34,624 bases of DNA, taken from the NCBI GenBank assembly GCA_001920875.1, contig MNKP01000188.1:1-34624 (forward strand). The letters are read 5' to 3'. The notes beneath the pieces are model-generated. The model saw only the letters and a program-made list of their open reading frames with translations, was not told the origin of the DNA and did no database searches. A program made the position numbers and the translations under genes. This document shows, in pieces, positions 461-25,268 of the stretch. Source of the stretch: Acidobacteria bacterium 13_1_20CM_2_55_15 (lineage in GTDB: Bacteria > Acidobacteriota > Terriglobia > 20CM-2-55-15). Each line of letters opens with the position of its first letter. Positions within the stretch are counted from its first letter, which is position 1.

Positions 461-539
461 GCGAGATTCTGTGGCTCCGAAGGAAAGTGAGATAGCCGGC
501 GGTTATAAAGGCGTGAGTCGGGCCACTACAGAGAAACAC

Positions 540-1874
540 ATGAAGCAAAAGATCAATGTTGGAATCATCGGTTTGGGGACGGTTGGCAGCGGTGCGTTTC
601 GCATCTTGCGGGACAACGCGGAATTGATCCGCCATCGAGTCGGCGTCCCTGTGGAGGTGACCAAAATCGCAGTCCGTGATGCTACACGCGACCGCGGAGT
701 CGCCATTCCCGCAGGAGTGCTGACGACCAATCCGTCGCAGGTCATCGACGACCCGAACATCGACATCGTGATCGAGTTAATCGGCGGCTATGAGCCCGCT
801 AGAGAACTCATACTCGCCGCCATCGCCCGGGGCAAACACGTCGTTACAGCGAACAAGGCTCTGCTGGCGGCTGACGGAGCCGAGATCCATGAGGCAGCGC
901 GGCGGGCCGGAGTCAGCATCGGTTACGAGGCGAGCGTCGGCGGCGGCATTCCGGTCATTAAGGCTCTGAAAGAGGCTCTGGCTGCAAATCGAATCCTGTC
1001 GATTTATGGAATCATCAACGGAACATCCAATTACATTCTGACAAAGATGACCGAGGAGGAGCGTTCGTTCGCCGATGTTCTGGCTGAAGCTCAGCGTGCC
1101 GGCTATGCTGAAGCGGACCCCACGTTCGATGTAGGCGGTATCGACACTGCCCACAAGCTGGCGATCCTCGTCAATCTGGCCTTTGGCGCGCACGTGAATT
1201 TGAAAGATATTTATACCGAAGGCATCACCTTGATCAGTCCCCTGGATATCGACTTCGGCAAGGTGCTCGGATACAAACTGAAGCTGCTGGCGATCGCAAA
1301 AATGCATGAAGGTGGACAAGCCGAGGCGCGCGTTCACCCAACCATGGTTCCGGATGATTATCCGATCGCGAAAGTCGCCGGCGTCTACAACGCCATCCAA
1401 ATCGTCGGGAATGCATGCGACGACATCATGCTCTATGGACGCGGGGCCGGTTCAATGCCGACCGGCAGCGCAGTGGTTGCCGATGTTATGGATATTGCGC
1501 GGCGTCAAATACTGATCGAGCCGTCCCGACGGGCGCAGCCACCCCTCCTCGAATTACCCGCCGGCAACGCAACATCCGATGCGGCCCTCGCCCTTCAACC
1601 GATGGAGTCGATTGTCAGTTTGTATTACTTCCGATTTATGGCGCTCGACCAGCCTGGAGTGTTAGCTCAGATTTCCGGCATCCTGGGGCGCCACAGGATC
1701 AGCATTGCCCAAATGATCCAGCGGGGGCGCAAGCAAGGCGGCTCTGTGCCACTCGTGATCATGACGCATAAGGCGCTCGAGCGAGATATTCAAAAGGCGC
1801 TCGTCGAAATAAAGTCGCTATCGTGCATTACGGAAGATCCCATCTTGATCCGTGTTGAAGGAGAGGAACCCTAG
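540..1874 (+). CDS. hom: Homoserine dehydrogenase with C-terminal ACT domain
   Basis: Homoserine dehydrogenase reduces aspartate semialdehyde to homoserine with NAD(P)H, the branch point to threonine, methionine and isoleucine. The 444-residue protein has the dinucleotide-binding GLGTVG loop at residues 11-16. It has the family Lys in TANKALL (K106), the substrate-site motif NGTSNYIL at 160-167 and the conserved GGIDTAHK stretch at 199-206. An ACT domain at about 366-436 should provide feedback control, probably by threonine. The length fits the monofunctional family; no aspartate kinase is fused. The frame is open back to a GTG at 471, but I chose the ATG at 540 because the extra 23 residues do not resemble the family and the Rossmann strand starts right after it. 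ilvA, which uses the threonine made downstream of this step, is about 6 kb away. Confidence 0.95.
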   Translation: MKQKINVGIIGLGTVGSGAFRILRDNAELIRHRVGVPVEVTKIAVRDATRDRGVAIPAGVLTTNPSQVIDDPNIDIVIELIGGYEPARELILAAIARGKHVVTANKALLAADGAEIHEAARRAGVSIGYEASVGGGIPVIKALKEALAANRILSIYGIINGTSNYILTKMTEEERSFADVLAEAQRAGYAEADPTFDVGGIDTAHKLAILVNLAFGAHVNLKDIYTEGITLISPLDIDFGKVLGYKLKLLAIAKMHEGGQAEARVHPTMVPDDYPIAKVAGVYNAIQIVGNACDDIMLYGRGAGSMPTGSAVVADVMDIARRQILIEPSRRAQPPLLELPAGNATSDAALALQPMESIVSLYYFRFMALDQPGVLAQISGILGRHRISIAQMIQRGRKQGGSVPLVIMTHKALERDIQKALVEIKSLSCITEDPILIRVEGEEP

Positions 1875-1894
1875 AAACTGCAGATTGAAATCCG

Positions 1895-1907
1895 AGATTT
1901 GAAATCT
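1895..1907. repeat. 13-bp palindrome between convergent genes
   Basis: A perfect palindrome (agattt-g-aaatct) sits in the 31-base gap between the convergent hom and GGDEF genes and overlaps the GGDEF stop codon. A related half (gattgaaatc) lies just before it. It could form a weak hairpin on either transcript, but no T-run follows, so terminator function is unproven. Confidence 0.3.
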
Positions 1908-3162
1908 AAGCGCTGTGGTTTAGGCTCTGAAAAGCCCGTGCACAGTTTTTAGACGAGCGTTTGGAGGCGTAGAGTGCTTGATCGGCTTCAGCGACCAGGG
2001 TTTCGAAATGGCTTCCTCGATGGTACTCGGAAAGTCCAATGCTTACCGTCACCGGAGCTGCAGTATATCCAAGCGAGGTGAGGATATCTGCACTTTCAAC
2101 TTTATGCAGAATTTTCTCCGCCACATGCATTGCGCCCTCCAGGTTCGTACCAGGTAACGCCACTCCAAATTCATCACCGCCGCAGCGGAACACGAAGTCT
2201 GTGTTTCGAACAGACTGCTTGAGTAAGACCGCAATTTGGGACAGGACTTTGTTTCCGACGACATGGCCGAACGTGTCATTCACCACCTTGAAGCTGTCGA
2301 TATCGATCATGAGCAGCGACAGCGGCGTTGTATACCGCTCCGCACGGGCGGTTTCTCGTCCCAGGACCTCATGAAAAAAGCGCGTATTGTAAGCGCCTGT
2401 GAGTGGATCGGTAATAGCCGTTCGCTGAAGCTCAGCAAATAATCCCGCATTTTCCAAGGCAATCGCTGTAAAGTCCGCCAGTGCGGAAGCTGTTGCAACA
2501 TCGTCGTCGTTGAAAATCCTCGTTTCGGCTCCCAGTGAAACGAAGGCGCCAAGCACAATATCTTTCGTCTGGATCGGCACGGCAAGCAGCGACGCGAGCG
2601 AATGCTTGTCGACGAAGCTTCTCAGTTCAGCAGGAATATTGGCCTGCTGAAGATTGGAAATGACCAACGGCTGCCGGCGCGTGAAAAGCTCCGAGAGCAG
2701 GTCGCCGCCTACTCCCTGGCTTCGAAGGTTGACAAGCGATATCAACATCTTCACGAGCCGGCCGGGGTCCTTTGAAAAAGTGGACTCCAGCCGAATCTGG
2801 CCCTCATCACCCGATAAAACAATGAACGCCGTGTCGCCCAATACATCAGTGGATTTCGAAACGACGCGATCCAGCAATTCGTCCATCTGAACCGATGACG
2901 AAAAGAGCCGAATCAAGTCACTAAGTAGTTCAGCCCGATGGACTTGTTCCTCGAGCTTGTGCAGCAGACGCCGGTAAAGTAAAAGTATTCCGGGATTCTT
3001 CTCCTCCGAGGTGATAATGACGGTGTCCGACTCTTTGATGTTCGAAAGATTATTTTCGGTGTGGGCTGTGACAATATCGTCGCTGACGCGTTCCTGAAGA
3101 ATTTCCCGTAGCTCCTTACATTGCTGGGGATCCGTCCCCAAAATAAAGATAGTGTGCGCCAT
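1906..3162 (-). CDS. GAF-GGDEF diguanylate cyclase
   Basis: This 418-residue soluble protein should make cyclic di-GMP from two GTP. An N-terminal stretch (1-80) resembles a degenerate receiver-like fold and is followed by a short helical linker. A GAF-like sensory domain covers about 85-245 and the GGDEF domain about 250-408. The catalytic GGDEF motif is intact at 328-332. The allosteric inhibition site RxxD (RNTD, 319-322) lies exactly five residues before it, so product inhibition is expected. The GAF ligand is unknown. No membrane segment is seen. The start is the ATG at 3162, with AGGA directly before it, unusually close for a ribosome binding site. A PilZ receptor at the window start is a possible, unproven, partner. 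Confidence 0.93.
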   Translation of the reverse strand: MAHTIFILGTDPQQCKELREILQERVSDDIVTAHTENNLSNIKESDTVIITSEEKNPGILLLYRRLLHKLEEQVHRAELLSDLIRLFSSSVQMDELLDRVVSKSTDVLGDTAFIVLSGDEGQIRLESTFSKDPGRLVKMLISLVNLRSQGVGGDLLSELFTRRQPLVISNLQQANIPAELRSFVDKHSLASLLAVPIQTKDIVLGAFVSLGAETRIFNDDDVATASALADFTAIALENAGLFAELQRTAITDPLTGAYNTRFFHEVLGRETARAERYTTPLSLLMIDIDSFKVVNDTFGHVVGNKVLSQIAVLLKQSVRNTDFVFRCGGDEFGVALPGTNLEGAMHVAEKILHKVESADILTSLGYTAAPVTVSIGLSEYHRGSHFETLVAEADQALYASKRSSKNCARAFQSLNHSA

Positions 3163-3348
3163 TCCTATTCGCCGACCTTAAAGCTTCCTTCGAGAACCTA
3201 TCGTAAGTAAGAAGCTGCGCCGGACAAATGAAAAAGTGCACGTATGGATGAAATTCAATACAATCCTGTCGGACCATTGACAAAAATTTATGTGTGACTG
3301 CCGCCAGGCCGTACGGCGGACAGTCCATTGAGTGTTATTGCGGCTTCA

Positions 3349-3510
3349 TCAGGCGGCTGACTGCTCGGGCAGATCCACTAACTCCCATTCCGAAAGACCT
3401 TTGCATTTGTGGCATCGGGGGAAGCTTGCGTCTTTGTCCAGCGCGACTTCTTCCCCGCAACATTCTGAAGCATATAGTCCTGGTTCGATGACGTCTTGTC
3501 CGGTCTTCAT
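3349..3510 (-). CDS. Small zinc-ribbon-like protein (53 aa)
   Basis: A 53-residue ORF on the minus strand between the GGDEF and dihydropyrimidinase genes. Four cysteines in two knuckles (C17 and C18, then C33 and C36 as CHKC), with a Phe-Pro just before the second knuckle and a Trp after it, match small rubredoxin-like zinc ribbon proteins. A strong ribosome binding site (ggggag) lies five bases before the ATG, which supports real translation. The first knuckle is CC followed by Gly rather than the usual CxxC, so metal binding by that half may be atypical. The function is unknown. It is co-oriented with the GGDEF gene but 186 bases away, and I see nothing else in that gap. Confidence 0.65.
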   Translation of the reverse strand: MKTGQDVIEPGLYASECCGEEVALDKDASFPRCHKCKGLSEWELVDLPEQSAA

Positions 3511-3662
3511 TTCACTCCCCTGTCGCGGTCTGTCTTACATGCTTGCACACTGAGCGCCAAATCGGAAATTCGCGGGGTCACAACAGTAGGTTTCGTATTT
3601 TGCCAACAAAAACCCTCAAAGTTCACAACAGGGAATTCGCCGTCTGACCCCAAATTTCCTGA

Positions 3663-3668
3663 TATATT
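3663..3668 (+). promoter_or_regulatory. Possible -10 element (TATATT) eight bases before the dihydropyrimidinase start
   Basis: TATATT ends eight bases before the ATG at 3677 and no ribosome binding site is present, so a leaderless or nearly leaderless mRNA is possible. The -35 region is not convincing. Confidence 0.3.
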
Positions 3669-3676
3669 GGCCGGCG

Positions 3677-5062
3677 ATGAAAATCCTCATCCGCAACGGA
3701 CATGTCGTGACTGCCGTCGATTCCTACACGGCCGATATTCTCGTCGATGGCTCTGCAGTCGTGCTTATAGGGCAGGACCTGCAGAAGATTTCCGGTGCTC
3801 TCGATAAAACCGTCGATGCTACCGGCAAACTTGTTATTCCCGGCGGAATCGACCCCCACACACACATGGATCTGCCTTTCGGCGGCACGTCGTCATCCGA
3901 CGATTTTGAAACCGGAACCCGTGCAGCCGCTTTCGGTGGCACCACGACGATCATCGACTTCGCAGTGCAATATCGTGGCCAATCGTTGAATCAAGCCTTG
4001 GATGTTTGGTTTTCGAAAGCGCAGGGAAAAGCGGCGATCGACTACGGATTCCACATGATCCTGACCGACTTGCCCGACCAACGCCTGGCGGAAATAAAAA
4101 ACCTCATCCAGCAGGGGGTCTCCAGCTTCAAGCTATTCATGGCGTACCCGGGAATTTTTCTCGTCGACGACGGGATAATTTTCAAGGCAATGACAGCCGC
4201 CGCTGAAGCCGGCGGTTTGATCTGCATGCACGCGGAAAATGGCGTCGTCATCGATGTGCTGGTCAGGAGGGCGCTCGCGGAAGGGAAAACGGCCCCGAAA
4301 TACCACGCCTTGACCCGTCCGACACGCGCTGAAGCCGAGGGTGTCCACCGAGCGATCGCCATTGCCGAGATGGCAAATTCTCCCGTCTATATCGTCCATC
4401 TGAGTTGCTACGAGGCGCTGAAGGAAGTCCAGGCTGCGCGTGACCTCGGTCTGCCCGCGTATGCCGAAACGTGCCCTCAGTACCTGTTCCTCGATTACGC
4501 CTGTTACGAACAAGACGGCTTCGAGGGCGCGAAGTACGTCATGACCCCACCCTTGCGGGATAAATCCAATCAGGAACAGCTCTGGAAGGGGCTCCGCGGA
4601 AACGATCTCCAGGTGCTTTCCACCGACCACTGTCCGTTTTGTTTCAAAGAGCAAAAGGAACTTGGGCGCAATGACTTCAGCAAAATTCCAAACGGGGGTC
4701 CTGGCGTCGAGCATCGCATGAGCCTAATTTACGATGGAGGAGTGGTTCAGGGACGGATCAATCTGAACCGCTTCGTCGAGCTGACATCGACCGCAGCGGC
4801 GAAGATTTTTGGGCTCTTTCCTAAGAAGGGCACCATCGCCGTTGGGTCTGATGCGGACATCGTGATCTTCGATCCGAACCGAGAGCAGACCATCAGCGTG
4901 AAGACCCACCACATGCGTGTAGACTACAGTGCGTATGAAGGCCGGAGGGTTCGCGGCGTAGTCGAGACGGTGCTGTCTCGCGGAAACATTGTCGTGGAGA
5001 ATGGGGAATTCAAAGGGAAGCCCGGATACGGCCAATTCGTTCGTAGAGGGACGGTACATTAA
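3677..5062 (+). CDS. hydA: Dihydropyrimidinase / D-hydantoinase
   Basis: A 461-residue cyclic amidohydrolase that opens dihydrouracil, dihydrothymine or 5-substituted hydantoins to N-carbamoyl amino acids. All metal ligands of the binuclear zinc site are visible. They are H61 and H63 (DPHTHMD), the carbamylated Lys K152 (SSFKLFMAYPG), H185 (MHAENG), H241 (IVHLS) and D317 (STDHCP). The length and the N-terminal strand (start at ATG 3677) match the family. The next gene encodes the enzyme for the following step, N-carbamoyl-beta-amino acid hydrolysis, after a 51-base gap, so pyrimidine catabolism is the likely role. A hydantoin-specific role cannot be excluded from sequence. No ribosome binding site is seen before the ATG. 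Confidence 0.93.
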   Translation: MKILIRNGHVVTAVDSYTADILVDGSAVVLIGQDLQKISGALDKTVDATGKLVIPGGIDPHTHMDLPFGGTSSSDDFETGTRAAAFGGTTTIIDFAVQYRGQSLNQALDVWFSKAQGKAAIDYGFHMILTDLPDQRLAEIKNLIQQGVSSFKLFMAYPGIFLVDDGIIFKAMTAAAEAGGLICMHAENGVVIDVLVRRALAEGKTAPKYHALTRPTRAEAEGVHRAIAIAEMANSPVYIVHLSCYEALKEVQAARDLGLPAYAETCPQYLFLDYACYEQDGFEGAKYVMTPPLRDKSNQEQLWKGLRGNDLQVLSTDHCPFCFKEQKELGRNDFSKIPNGGPGVEHRMSLIYDGGVVQGRINLNRFVELTSTAAAKIFGLFPKKGTIAVGSDADIVIFDPNREQTISVKTHHMRVDYSAYEGRRVRGVVETVLSRGNIVVENGEFKGKPGYGQFVRRGTVH

Positions 5063-5113
5063 TCATTCTTCATTAATCAATTCTCATCTCTCAATCGATG
5101 TTTAGGAGAACTT

Positions 5114-5983
5114 ATGGCACGCATCGTTAGGTGTGCGTTGATTCAGGCCACCTGCTCCACGCCGACAGAAGAACCGCTGGAAAAGATCAAGCGTGAAGCG
5201 ATCGAAAAGCATCTCAAACTGATTGACGAGGCCGCGCGAAAGGGCGCAAAGATTTTGTGCATGCAGGAAATTTTCACCGGTCCTTACTTCTGCGCCGAAC
5301 AGTCGCCGCGCTGGTATGGAATGGTGGAAAAAATTCCGGACGGCCCCACCGTTCATCTGATGCGGGAAATGGCCCAGAAGCATGCCATGGCGATGATCGT
5401 TCCGATTTACGAGGAAGACATCAAGGGTGTTTATTACAACACTGCCGCGGTTGTCGATGCCGACGGCAAGTATCTTGGAAAATATCGAAAGCACCACATT
5501 CCACACTGTGCCCCAGGCTTTTGGGAGAAGTTCTACTTCAAGCCCGGCAATCTCGGCTATCCCGTGTTCAAGACGCAATTCGCAGATATTGGAGTCTACA
5601 TCTGCTACGATCGTCACTTTCCGGAAGGAGCGCGGGCTTTAGGGCTGAACGGGGCGGAGATCGTATTCAATCCGTCGGCAACTGTTGCCGGTTTGAGCGA
5701 ATACTTGTGGAAGCTCGAGCAGCCCGCGCATGCCGTGGCAAACGGGTATTTCCTCGGCGCTATTAATCGTGTCGGTCACGAGTACCCGTGGGATATCGGA
5801 GAATTCTACGGACAAAGTTATTTCTGTACGCCGCGCGGGAAAATCATCGCCGAGGGATCGCGGGACAAGGAAGAAGTTGTCGTGGCCGATCTCAACCTCG
5901 ACGAGATTCAAGAAGTGCGTAATGTGTGGCAATTCTTCCGCGATCGCCGGCCGGAGTCCTATGGCGACCTGGTGAAGGAGTAA
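5114..5983 (+). CDS. Beta-ureidopropionase (nitrilase superfamily N-carbamoyl amidohydrolase)
   Basis: This 289-residue protein is expected to hydrolyse N-carbamoyl-beta-alanine (or N-carbamoyl-beta-aminoisobutyrate) to the beta-amino acid, CO2 and ammonia. The Glu-Lys-Cys triad of the nitrilase superfamily is intact: E52 (CMQEIF), K126 (GKYRKHHIP) and C164 (YICYDRHFPEG). The FKPGNLGYPVF region at 142-152 resembles beta-ureidopropionases more than generic nitrilases. N-carbamoylputrescine amidases are close relatives and are the main alternative, but the neighbouring dihydropyrimidinase favours the pyrimidine role. A good ribosome binding site (aggaga) lies five bases before the ATG. It is followed 25 bases later by the LLM oxidoreductase, so the three genes are probably one transcript. 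Confidence 0.9.
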   Translation: MARIVRCALIQATCSTPTEEPLEKIKREAIEKHLKLIDEAARKGAKILCMQEIFTGPYFCAEQSPRWYGMVEKIPDGPTVHLMREMAQKHAMAMIVPIYEEDIKGVYYNTAAVVDADGKYLGKYRKHHIPHCAPGFWEKFYFKPGNLGYPVFKTQFADIGVYICYDRHFPEGARALGLNGAEIVFNPSATVAGLSEYLWKLEQPAHAVANGYFLGAINRVGHEYPWDIGEFYGQSYFCTPRGKIIAEGSRDKEEVVVADLNLDEIQEVRNVWQFFRDRRPESYGDLVKE

Positions 5984-6008
5984 GGTGCGTGAACCTTAAG
6001 GAGATGTG

Positions 6009-7049
6009 ATGTTGGAATTTGCTTTTACGTTGAAGCCGGACATGAATCCGGAAAGAGTCATCGCGCTGACGCGACAGGCCGAGAACGCGGGTTTCGCTTG
6101 CGGTTGGGTATTCGACTCTCACGTTTTATGGCAGGATCCATATCCGCTGCTGACGCTTATGGCCGCCAATACCCGGCGAATGCGTTTCGGTACGTGTGTC
6201 ACGAACCCCGTCGTACGGGATCCCACAGTCACCGCCAGCTTGCTTGCGACGCTGAATCGTATCTCCGGCGGCAGAATGGACTGTGGAATCGGTCGCGGCG
6301 ACAGTTCGCGCCGTGTCATGGGGAAACGGCCGACGACTTTGGAAAATCTCGAGCAAACCGTCCAGATCATTCGAGCTCTGAACAGTGGAAAGCAAATCAC
6401 GTACGAAGGCCATCCGATACAAATGCCTTGGGCCGATGGCGGCGTTCCTCCGGTGTGGGTCGCGGCCTACGGACCCAAAGCCTTACGTTGCGCCGGACGT
6501 ATCGGTGACGGAGTCATTCTCCAATTCTCCGATCCTCATCTGATCAAGTGGTGTCTTGGTTTCGTCAAACAAGGATCGGAAGAAGCGGGCCGGGACTTCT
6601 CGAAGATCAAAGTGATGAGCGCAACTGCCGTCTGGGTCTCCGAAGACAAGAAGACGGCTCGCGAACGTGTACGATGGTTTCCGGCGCTCGTTTCGAATCA
6701 CGTCGTCGATCTCGTATCGCGTTACAAGCCGGAAGAACTACCTCCCGAACTTACCTCTTATATAGGCGATCGAAAGGGTTACAACTATCTTCATCACGCC
6801 GAGGTCGGCAGCAGCAACGCCGAATTTGTAACCGACGAGGTCGTCGACCGATTCTGTATGGTGGGGAATATTACAGACCACATCCGAAAGCTCGAACAAT
6901 TGCGTTCCCTGGGCGTAACGCAATTCAACATCTATTTAATGTGCGGTGACGAGGAAGAGACTCTCGAAATCTACGGCCGCGACATCATCCCGGAGTTTGC
7001 AGACGGAACTAGCCATAAAAAGGCACAAAAGATCACAAAAGATTTATAA
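6009..7049 (+). CDS. LLM-class flavin/F420-dependent oxidoreductase (TIGR03842-like)
   Basis: A 346-residue luciferase-like TIM-barrel protein. Several stretches match the TIGR03842 group from memory: FDSHVLWQDPYPLLTLMA near the N-terminus, SGGRMDCGIGRGDSSRR in the middle, and WFPALVSNHVVDLV and HHAEVGSSNAEFVTDEVVD further on. Members use FMN or coenzyme F420; which one applies cannot be decided here. The ATG at 6009 has aaggaga five bases upstream; the GTG one codon before is unlikely. It sits in a pyrimidine-catabolic cluster, and RutA, the uracil ring-opening monooxygenase, belongs to the same broad superfamily, so a role in preparing or oxidising a pyrimidine-like substrate is plausible. 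The last 12 codons coincide with a half-copy of an intergenic repeat and look like a recent tail. Confidence 0.85.
   Translation: MLEFAFTLKPDMNPERVIALTRQAENAGFACGWVFDSHVLWQDPYPLLTLMAANTRRMRFGTCVTNPVVRDPTVTASLLATLNRISGGRMDCGIGRGDSSRRVMGKRPTTLENLEQTVQIIRALNSGKQITYEGHPIQMPWADGGVPPVWVAAYGPKALRCAGRIGDGVILQFSDPHLIKWCLGFVKQGSEEAGRDFSKIKVMSATAVWVSEDKKTARERVRWFPALVSNHVVDLVSRYKPEELPPELTSYIGDRKGYNYLHHAEVGSSNAEFVTDEVVDRFCMVGNITDHIRKLEQLRSLGVTQFNIYLMCGDEEETLEIYGRDIIPEFADGTSHKKAQKITKDL
7011..7047 (+). repeat. Half-copy of the gccacaaaaaggcacaaaa repeat inside the LLM gene end
   Basis: gccataaaaaggcacaaaa differs by one base from the left arm of the inverted repeat at 9044-9108, and similarity continues into cacaa. 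Only one arm is present. It encodes the C-terminal SHKKAQKITKDL of the LLM protein and lies next to the stop codon. Confidence 0.65.
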
Positions 7050-24092: not shown

Positions 24093-25268
24093 CTATCCAG
24101 ATCCATTGATCCATTGTCCCGGCGTGCGCAGCGCGTCGGCCAGATCGTTGAGAAAAAGTGCTGCTCGAGCGCCGTCGACGACGCGATGATCACCGGAAAG
24201 CGTCAGTGTCATCATCGGGCGGACGGCGGGTTGACCATTGAGCGCAATAACGCGATCCGCGATGCGACCCACAGCGAGAATCGCGGCCTGAGGCGGCGCG
24301 ATGATGGCGTTGAACGCATCGACGTTATACATGCCGAGATTGGTGATCGTGAATGTGCCGCCGGCTACGTCGCCCGGTCTTAGCCGTCCGTTACGGGCGC
24401 GATCGGTCAGTTCCTTCCGCTGAGATGCAATCTCAGTGATCCCTGTTTTGTCGGCATTCGGAATTACTGCTCCAACTACACCATCCTGAACTGCCATGGC
24501 AACACTAATATTGATGCTGGAATTCAGACGGATGGCGCCGCTGTCCCATGTTGCATTCAGCTTCGGATGTTTTGTGAGCACTCTCGCGACGAGCGCAACC
24601 AGGAGATCGGTGTGGGTGACGGTTTTAGACCCCAACGTTTCGCGGAGGTCGATCAAGGCGCCGGCATCCACGTCCCGAACGAGGAAGAAGTGCGGAACTT
24701 GAGTCCAGCTTTGAGTTGTGCGCTCGGCCATTAACCGGGCAACGGCGCTGAGCGTGGAGGGCGCTGCGACGGGCGTTGGGGCGGACGGGGCTTCGGCGGC
24801 TTTGAGAACATCTTCGCTCGTGATGACGCCATCGGGCCCTCGGCCAACGATTTTCGTTATGTCGACGCCTTTCTCTTTGGCGAGGCGGCGCGCCTTGGGA
24901 GAGATTTGTGGAGAATTGGAACCCAGTTCTGTAGGGGCGGTCTGCGACCGCCCAGGGCGCTCATAGAGCGCCCCTACAGCCGCACGGGCCGCAGGAGGCG
25001 CCGCAAGCGGCTCTGCGGGAGGTTGTTCGCCGGGCGAGACGAGCCAGGCGATGGTTTGGCCCACGGGAACCACATCACCTTCGCGCGATTTCACGCCAGC
25101 AAGGACACCGTCCGCGGTGGCCTCGACTTCGACGACCGCCTTATCCGTCTCCACTTCAAGAAGGATTTCGCCTTTGCTGACGGTATCGCCTTCTTTTTTC
25201 AGCCAGGAGACAATCTTTCCGGTTTCTTGCGCCATTTCGAGCGCAGGCATCACGATGCTGGTAGCCAT
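24093..25268 (-). CDS. 2-oxoacid dehydrogenase complex E2 (dihydrolipoamide acyltransferase)
   Basis: A 391-residue E2 core subunit. The N-terminal lipoyl domain (1-78) has the lipoylated Lys at 43 (EVETDKAVVEVEA). A linker follows (80-120), then the E1/E3-binding domain (about 122-157, SPKARRLAKEKGVDITKIVG). The C-terminal acyltransferase domain has the catalytic His361 and Asp365 (SGDHRVVDG). It passes the acyl group from E1 to CoA. Residues 97-113 of the linker are encoded by a palindromic repeat element. E1 subunits are encoded directly upstream; no E3 is present, so the housekeeping E3 is presumably shared. The acyl group (acetyl, propionyl or branched) is not deducible. Confidence 0.93.
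   Translation of the reverse strand: MATSIVMPALEMAQETGKIVSWLKKEGDTVSKGEILLEVETDKAVVEVEATADGVLAGVKSREGDVVPVGQTIAWLVSPGEQPPAEPLAAPPAARAAVGALYERPGRSQTAPTELGSNSPQISPKARRLAKEKGVDITKIVGRGPDGVITSEDVLKAAEAPSAPTPVAAPSTLSAVARLMAERTTQSWTQVPHFFLVRDVDAGALIDLRETLGSKTVTHTDLLVALVARVLTKHPKLNATWDSGAIRLNSSINISVAMAVQDGVVGAVIPNADKTGITEIASQRKELTDRARNGRLRPGDVAGGTFTITNLGMYNVDAFNAIIAPPQAAILAVGRIADRVIALNGQPAVRPMMTLTLSGDHRVVDGARAALFLNDLADALRTPGQWINGSG
24930..24978. repeat. tgtaggggcg two-hairpin element inside the E2 gene
   Basis: A 49-bp element with 10-bp terminal inverted repeats (tgtaggggcg...cgcccctaca) enclosing two perfect 8-bp hairpins with 3-base loops (24935-24953 and 24955-24973). This pattern is common as an intergenic repeat in many bacteria. 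Here it is read in frame as residues 97-113 of E2. No target duplication is obvious. Confidence 0.8.

Follow-up and report, generated by a model that had tools for sequence, protein, structure and literature searches.

A head-to-head dimer of GTAG-type REPs translated in frame within the predicted disordered linker of an acidobacterial E2 acyltransferase

The window, which is the whole stretch of 34,624 nucleotides that was analysed, carries on its minus strand a gene for a dihydrolipoamide acyltransferase (E2) of 391 residues (24093–25268), the nearest named relatives of which come from metagenome assemblies of soil Acidobacteria ('gp5'). The domain order is typical, with a lipoyl domain (residues 5–74, 25047–25256; PF00364) followed by an E3-binding domain of the E1/E3 type (residues 121–155, 24804–24908; PF02817) and a catalytic domain (residues 173–386, 24111–24752; PF00198). 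The first two domains are joined by an inter-domain linker (residues 88–117, 24918–25007) that is predicted to be disordered, given that the AlphaFold model assigns these residues a pLDDT below 50, and the element described here lies, according to this model, wholly inside it.

The element is located at 24930–24978 and reads TGTAGGGGCGGTCTGCGACCGCCCAGGGCGCTCATAGAGCGCCCCTACA, a perfect 49-bp palindromic dimer that is bounded by a perfect 10-bp terminal inverted repeat, TGTAGGGGCG, on the left (24930–24939, plus strand) and on the right (24969–24978, minus strand). Half 1 (24930–24953, plus strand) consists of a T and a GTAG foot (24931–24934) followed by the hairpin GGGCGGTC-TGC-GACCGCCC (24935–24942/24946–24953), and has 0 mismatches to the REP pattern of the genome. 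Half 2 is inverted (24955–24978, minus strand), with its GTAG foot at 24974–24977 and the hairpin GGGCGCTC-TAT-GAGCGCCC (24955–24962/24966–24973), a GCTC/GAGC stem variant that is also found at contigs C33, C95, C103, C137, C197 and C204. Both halves thus follow the scheme T + GTAG + GGGCGNTC-NNN-GANCGCCC, each hairpin having a perfect 8-bp stem and a 3-nt loop, with a spacer of 1 bp between the two hairpins and 84% complementarity between the 25-nt arms of the dimer. The flanking C and G belong to the palindrome, extending it to 51 bp or 17 codons. A terminal GTAG adjoining a stem within the 6–13 bp range and a short loop are the marks of GTAG-type REPs, and the element is a head-to-head dimer of such REPs. 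The first-pass annotation had described a 49-bp element with 10-bp terminal inverted repeats and two 8-bp hairpins in the coding sequence, sitting in a flexible linker that joins the lipoyl domain to the E1/E3-binding domain; the sequence, hairpin and repeat checks confirm the former, and the domain boundaries and predicted disorder agree with the latter. Small corrections are that the gene is located on the minus strand and that the flanking bases make the palindrome 17 codons long; the element covers codons 98–113 entirely, translated as VGALYERPGRSQTAPT, and only the third base of codon 97.

Repeats of this kind are dispersed through the genome, as well as through the genus. In the assembly that contains the window (G000; 3.44 Mb in 211 contigs, 82% complete), the half-element has 49 forward and 36 reverse matches with at most three mismatches, about 85 in total, compared with one and one for a reversed-pattern control, and there are six perfect pairs of terminal repeats. 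A scenario in which the element occurs nowhere else is therefore excluded. The 49-bp dimer itself, which usually pairs a GGTC stem on one side with a GCTC stem on the other, is present in 13 copies across five of six genomes examined in the genus with 0 control matches, and G001 carries a 51-bp relative with perfect ends. Beyond the genus, the exact 49-bp dimer was found in 0 of 198 sampled other genomes of the phylum. The family is mostly extragenic, as had been supposed: about 7 of 52 elements of the genome are located in coding sequence, and the E2 copy is among these exceptions. We note that G000 also contains a different near-perfect palindrome of 66–68 bp (TGTAGGGGCGGTCTATTCCTTGAGGCTGCG..., L005, C158:33721–33786), likewise found in G005 (C529:6226–6293), which has the same terminal repeats around another core, and that a mixed form in G005 (C599:10058–10121) joins the TGTAGGGGCGGTCTATTCCTTGAGGCTGCG-type core to the GCGAAGCGCAAGCGCG stretch of the G003 E2 and UDG elements.

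Within E2, a related element is seen in the closest species, G003 (89% identity), where a decayed form that is 24 bp longer occupies the same codon position and frame. The element is absent from the E2 of G001, G004 and more distant genomes, and among 80 E2 orthologues from another collection it is present only in L086, the G003 orthologue; the E2 N-terminus was sought in G005 and G002 and not found. Because the site is common to G000 and G003, the element probably entered the linker in the common ancestor of the two species. The 14 element codons that align between the two species show 4 synonymous differences and 0 nonsynonymous ones (P about 0.01 for this pair), the corresponding counts for the rest of the linker being 11.5 and 11.5. 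The G003 palindrome has been lost with the shared residues kept, and, as the shared codons changed only synonymously, the peptide has outlived the palindrome in this species.

The linker bearing the element comprises 41 residues, compared with a median of 42 (range 30–61) in 28 orthologues that do not bear it. With no lengthening, the element either took the place of earlier linker residues or its arrival was offset by a later loss. The empty orthologues were compared for a simple insertion and for a target-site duplication of the kind that marks a MITE; they are too divergent at this site to show one, the bases flanking the element are the C and G of the palindrome, and the lengths do not fit a simple gain of 17 residues. 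From a linker that is no longer than its element-free counterparts, no discrete insertion step can be traced. The element did bring a tyrosine into the linker, a residue contained in 0 of the 28 other linkers. The proposal of the first-pass annotation that a repeat was recruited as protein linker is therefore reasonable insofar as the sister species keeps the residues with changed codons, and distant orthologues do lack the element; the expected net insertion did not materialize, and the same residues are encoded by other codons only through synonymous drift of a recognizable repeat. Nor is the case exceptional.

Indeed, about ten other genes of the genus carry in-frame elements, as judged by the codon bias of the sequence on either side of each element and by alignment of orthologues. 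In G000 these are the genes for UDG, SpoIID (within the signal peptide), AddA, AddB and a membrane protein, with a further, less certain, signal-peptide case on C200; elsewhere they include TreS-maltokinase (G005), an S58 peptidase and CobB (G003) and genes of G002. A copy on C192 (L206) was initially suggested to be coding by its open reading frame, and was discarded since the G003 homologue has stops. Nearly all in-frame copies are read in the GTA frame, which gives VGA(V/L)Y(D/E)RP or a variant of it. A 49-bp dimer with TAT and ATA loops has a stop in every frame, such that fully open copies require a changed loop or a change in length. Short dimers are found in coding locations more often (8 of 19, three of the eight being called coding by homology) than long ones (1 of 18; Fisher P = 0.019). 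Element positions are orthologous between species, four in the case of SpoIID, at least four for UDG and four for TreS-maltokinase, and in the TreS-maltokinase of G003 much of the peptide is kept with changed wobble bases and a ruined palindrome.

Several of these genes merit separate description. Two related, very long open reading frames of G002, L223 (C454) and L323 (C609), bear elements at the same site, one a dimer of 72 bp and the other a form of 48 bp, separated by an in-frame deletion of 24 bp; the pair shows directly how a dimer shrinks within a gene. On L212 (G000 C204), neighbouring AddA-like (478–3705) and AddB-like (3732–6260) genes each contain a REP-derived in-frame stretch, of about 34 and 39 residues, where the orthologues of other species are mostly shorter; these stretches agree with the enrichment of REPs that has been reported for repair genes. 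In the CobB orthologue of G000 itself (L270, C145:5300–6350), about 50 additional residues (FGRGRRDSQRAG...) occupy precisely the position of the REP dimer of G003; no REP is clearly recognizable among them, and the site resembles a hot spot for extra sequence.

Pooled over the coding copies, the elements show 42 synonymous and 37 nonsynonymous changes, compared with 19 and 37 for non-coding copies when these are translated in that frame (one-sided P = 0.02), in a test that leaves out the loop codons and pools related lineages against a consensus of our choosing. An initial test of the synonymous excess that lacked a control was too optimistic, since loop bases vary freely, and removal of the loop codons weakened P to 0.02. 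Because the lineages are not independent, the pooled excess is moderate evidence of constraint at the protein level. This excess of synonymous changes in coding compared with non-coding copies bears on the possibility that the element is purely a neutral passenger, that is, a selfish repeat that the linker tolerates and whose peptide is under no constraint. Such a passenger would sit comfortably in a linker that is predicted to be disordered and is highly variable, and, with most REPs being intergenic, those within genes would be expected where harm is small. The codon-level excess, together with the elements of SpoIID, UDG, TreS-maltokinase and E2 that stay in frame at matching positions in several species, leads us to regard an entirely neutral history as less likely than not.

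A role for the hairpins at the level of RNA or DNA, for example in slowing ribosomes between domains or in mRNA processing, with the peptide being incidental, appears improbable. The two 8-bp hairpins are GC-rich, and the element is predicted to fold stably as RNA (z = -4.3, with 0 of 200 shuffles equally stable). Moreover, the G000 palindrome has remained perfect even though the E2 cores of G000 and G003 are separated by a dS of about 0.65, a mild hint that the structure is maintained or that another copy has refreshed it. However, the sister species has lost the E2 palindrome and retained the shared residues, so the hairpins are no conserved requirement; the wobble changes that destroy the palindrome in the G003 TreS-maltokinase leave much of the peptide in place, and every other E2 orthologue manages without the element. 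Finally, that biased codons of an Ala/Pro/Gly/Arg-rich linker would have produced the palindrome by chance, with no repeat involved, can be set aside even for a GC-rich gene with low-complexity linkers, given exact family members in genome and genus as opposed to zero controls and a tyrosine foreign to the other 28 linkers.

We therefore favour, with a probability of about 0.88, the interpretation that the element is a non-autonomous dimer of GTAG REPs, similar to a REPIN and belonging to a genus-specific family, that entered the E2 linker in the common ancestor and has since been evolving as protein. On this model, a dimer copy would have entered the disordered linker through the RAYT-driven spread of its family. 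Its survival there may reflect a tolerant site and the GTA frame of the dimer, which is free of stops once TGC/GCA takes the place of TAT/ATA in one of the loops. The encoded peptide, being short, hydrophilic and presumably unstructured, could then serve as linker in place of Ala/Pro-rich sequence, and its later evolution as protein, under what may be weak selection on the peptide, would allow the sister palindrome to decay synonymously with the shared residues staying.

Candidate mobilizing enzymes are present in the sister genome G003, where two tyrosine transposases pass the model for REP-associated tyrosine transposases (NF047646) above its cut-off; the one that was compared with solved structures has a weak match to TnpArep (4er8). 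Both are flanked on each side by sibling REP subfamilies (GTAGCGGCG, GTAGGCGCG), and no RAYT with the exact GTAGGGGCG subfamily was found. We note that the open frames of the two genes (L083:1360–1989 and L084:1318–1905) run into their own 5' REP (TVAAVYDRRR and VVGAVCDRA, respectively), so that the start codons are uncertain. As a search of G000, which is 82% complete, found no RAYT, we only infer that a RAYT mobilized the family of the E2 element.

A broader and more tentative proposal, which we consider possible and would not yet favour, is that the REP dimers of this genus have repeatedly been domesticated as linkers and signal-peptide tails, with short dimers that have an open GTA frame being retained in frame within conserved enzymes, inherited by daughter species at the same positions, shrinking in frame and coming under selection at the level of amino acids. 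If so, a selfish repeat would be a regular source of linker sequence. With several genes and species of the genus available for comparison, the idea of a recruited repeat becomes testable by codon evolution and need not remain an anecdote. For annotation, VGA(V/L)Y(D/E)RPG-like peptides in this genus should be taken as derived from mobile repeats and not as homologous domains.

Translated palindromic repeats, including REPs, are already known. The organization of the E2 element resembles REPINs, in which two inverted REPs act as one unit and which, like REPs, are mainly extragenic (PMC3116915); the inverted pair is a shared feature, RAYT genes flanked by REPs of sibling subfamilies are present in the sister genome, and the genome of the element itself yielded no RAYT. 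With regard to translation, a parallel in behaviour is provided by the Rickettsia palindromic elements, which are translated in frame in unrelated conserved genes, some in more than one species, and which were described earlier than the intragenic GTAG REPs (PMC10969869, PMC3733652). About ten other unrelated genes are affected here in the same manner, but the foot is GTAG and not the CGTC that characterizes RPE-4 and RPE-6 (PMC3733652), RPE-1 being a longer element; the acidobacterial element works like an RPE and is not one. In structure, the element matches the intragenic GTAG REPs described in 2013, which include dimers encoding 20–30 residues and are often inserted in frame in DNA repair genes such as those of the RecBCD and UvrD types (PMC3733652). 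Common to both are the GTAG foot, a short stem closed by a 3-nt loop and head-to-head pairing, with spacers of 1–2 bp in some families such as O. terrae GTAG-17 (PMC3733652, 2013), and AddA, AddB and UDG are also affected here. Acidobacteria are not among the phyla given for GTAG repeats in that survey (PMC3733652), so that translated REP elements are here extended to a further phylum. The present study also adds the linker of E2 as a host site, the finding that elements of several genes are kept at orthologous sites in different species, and a codon-level test.
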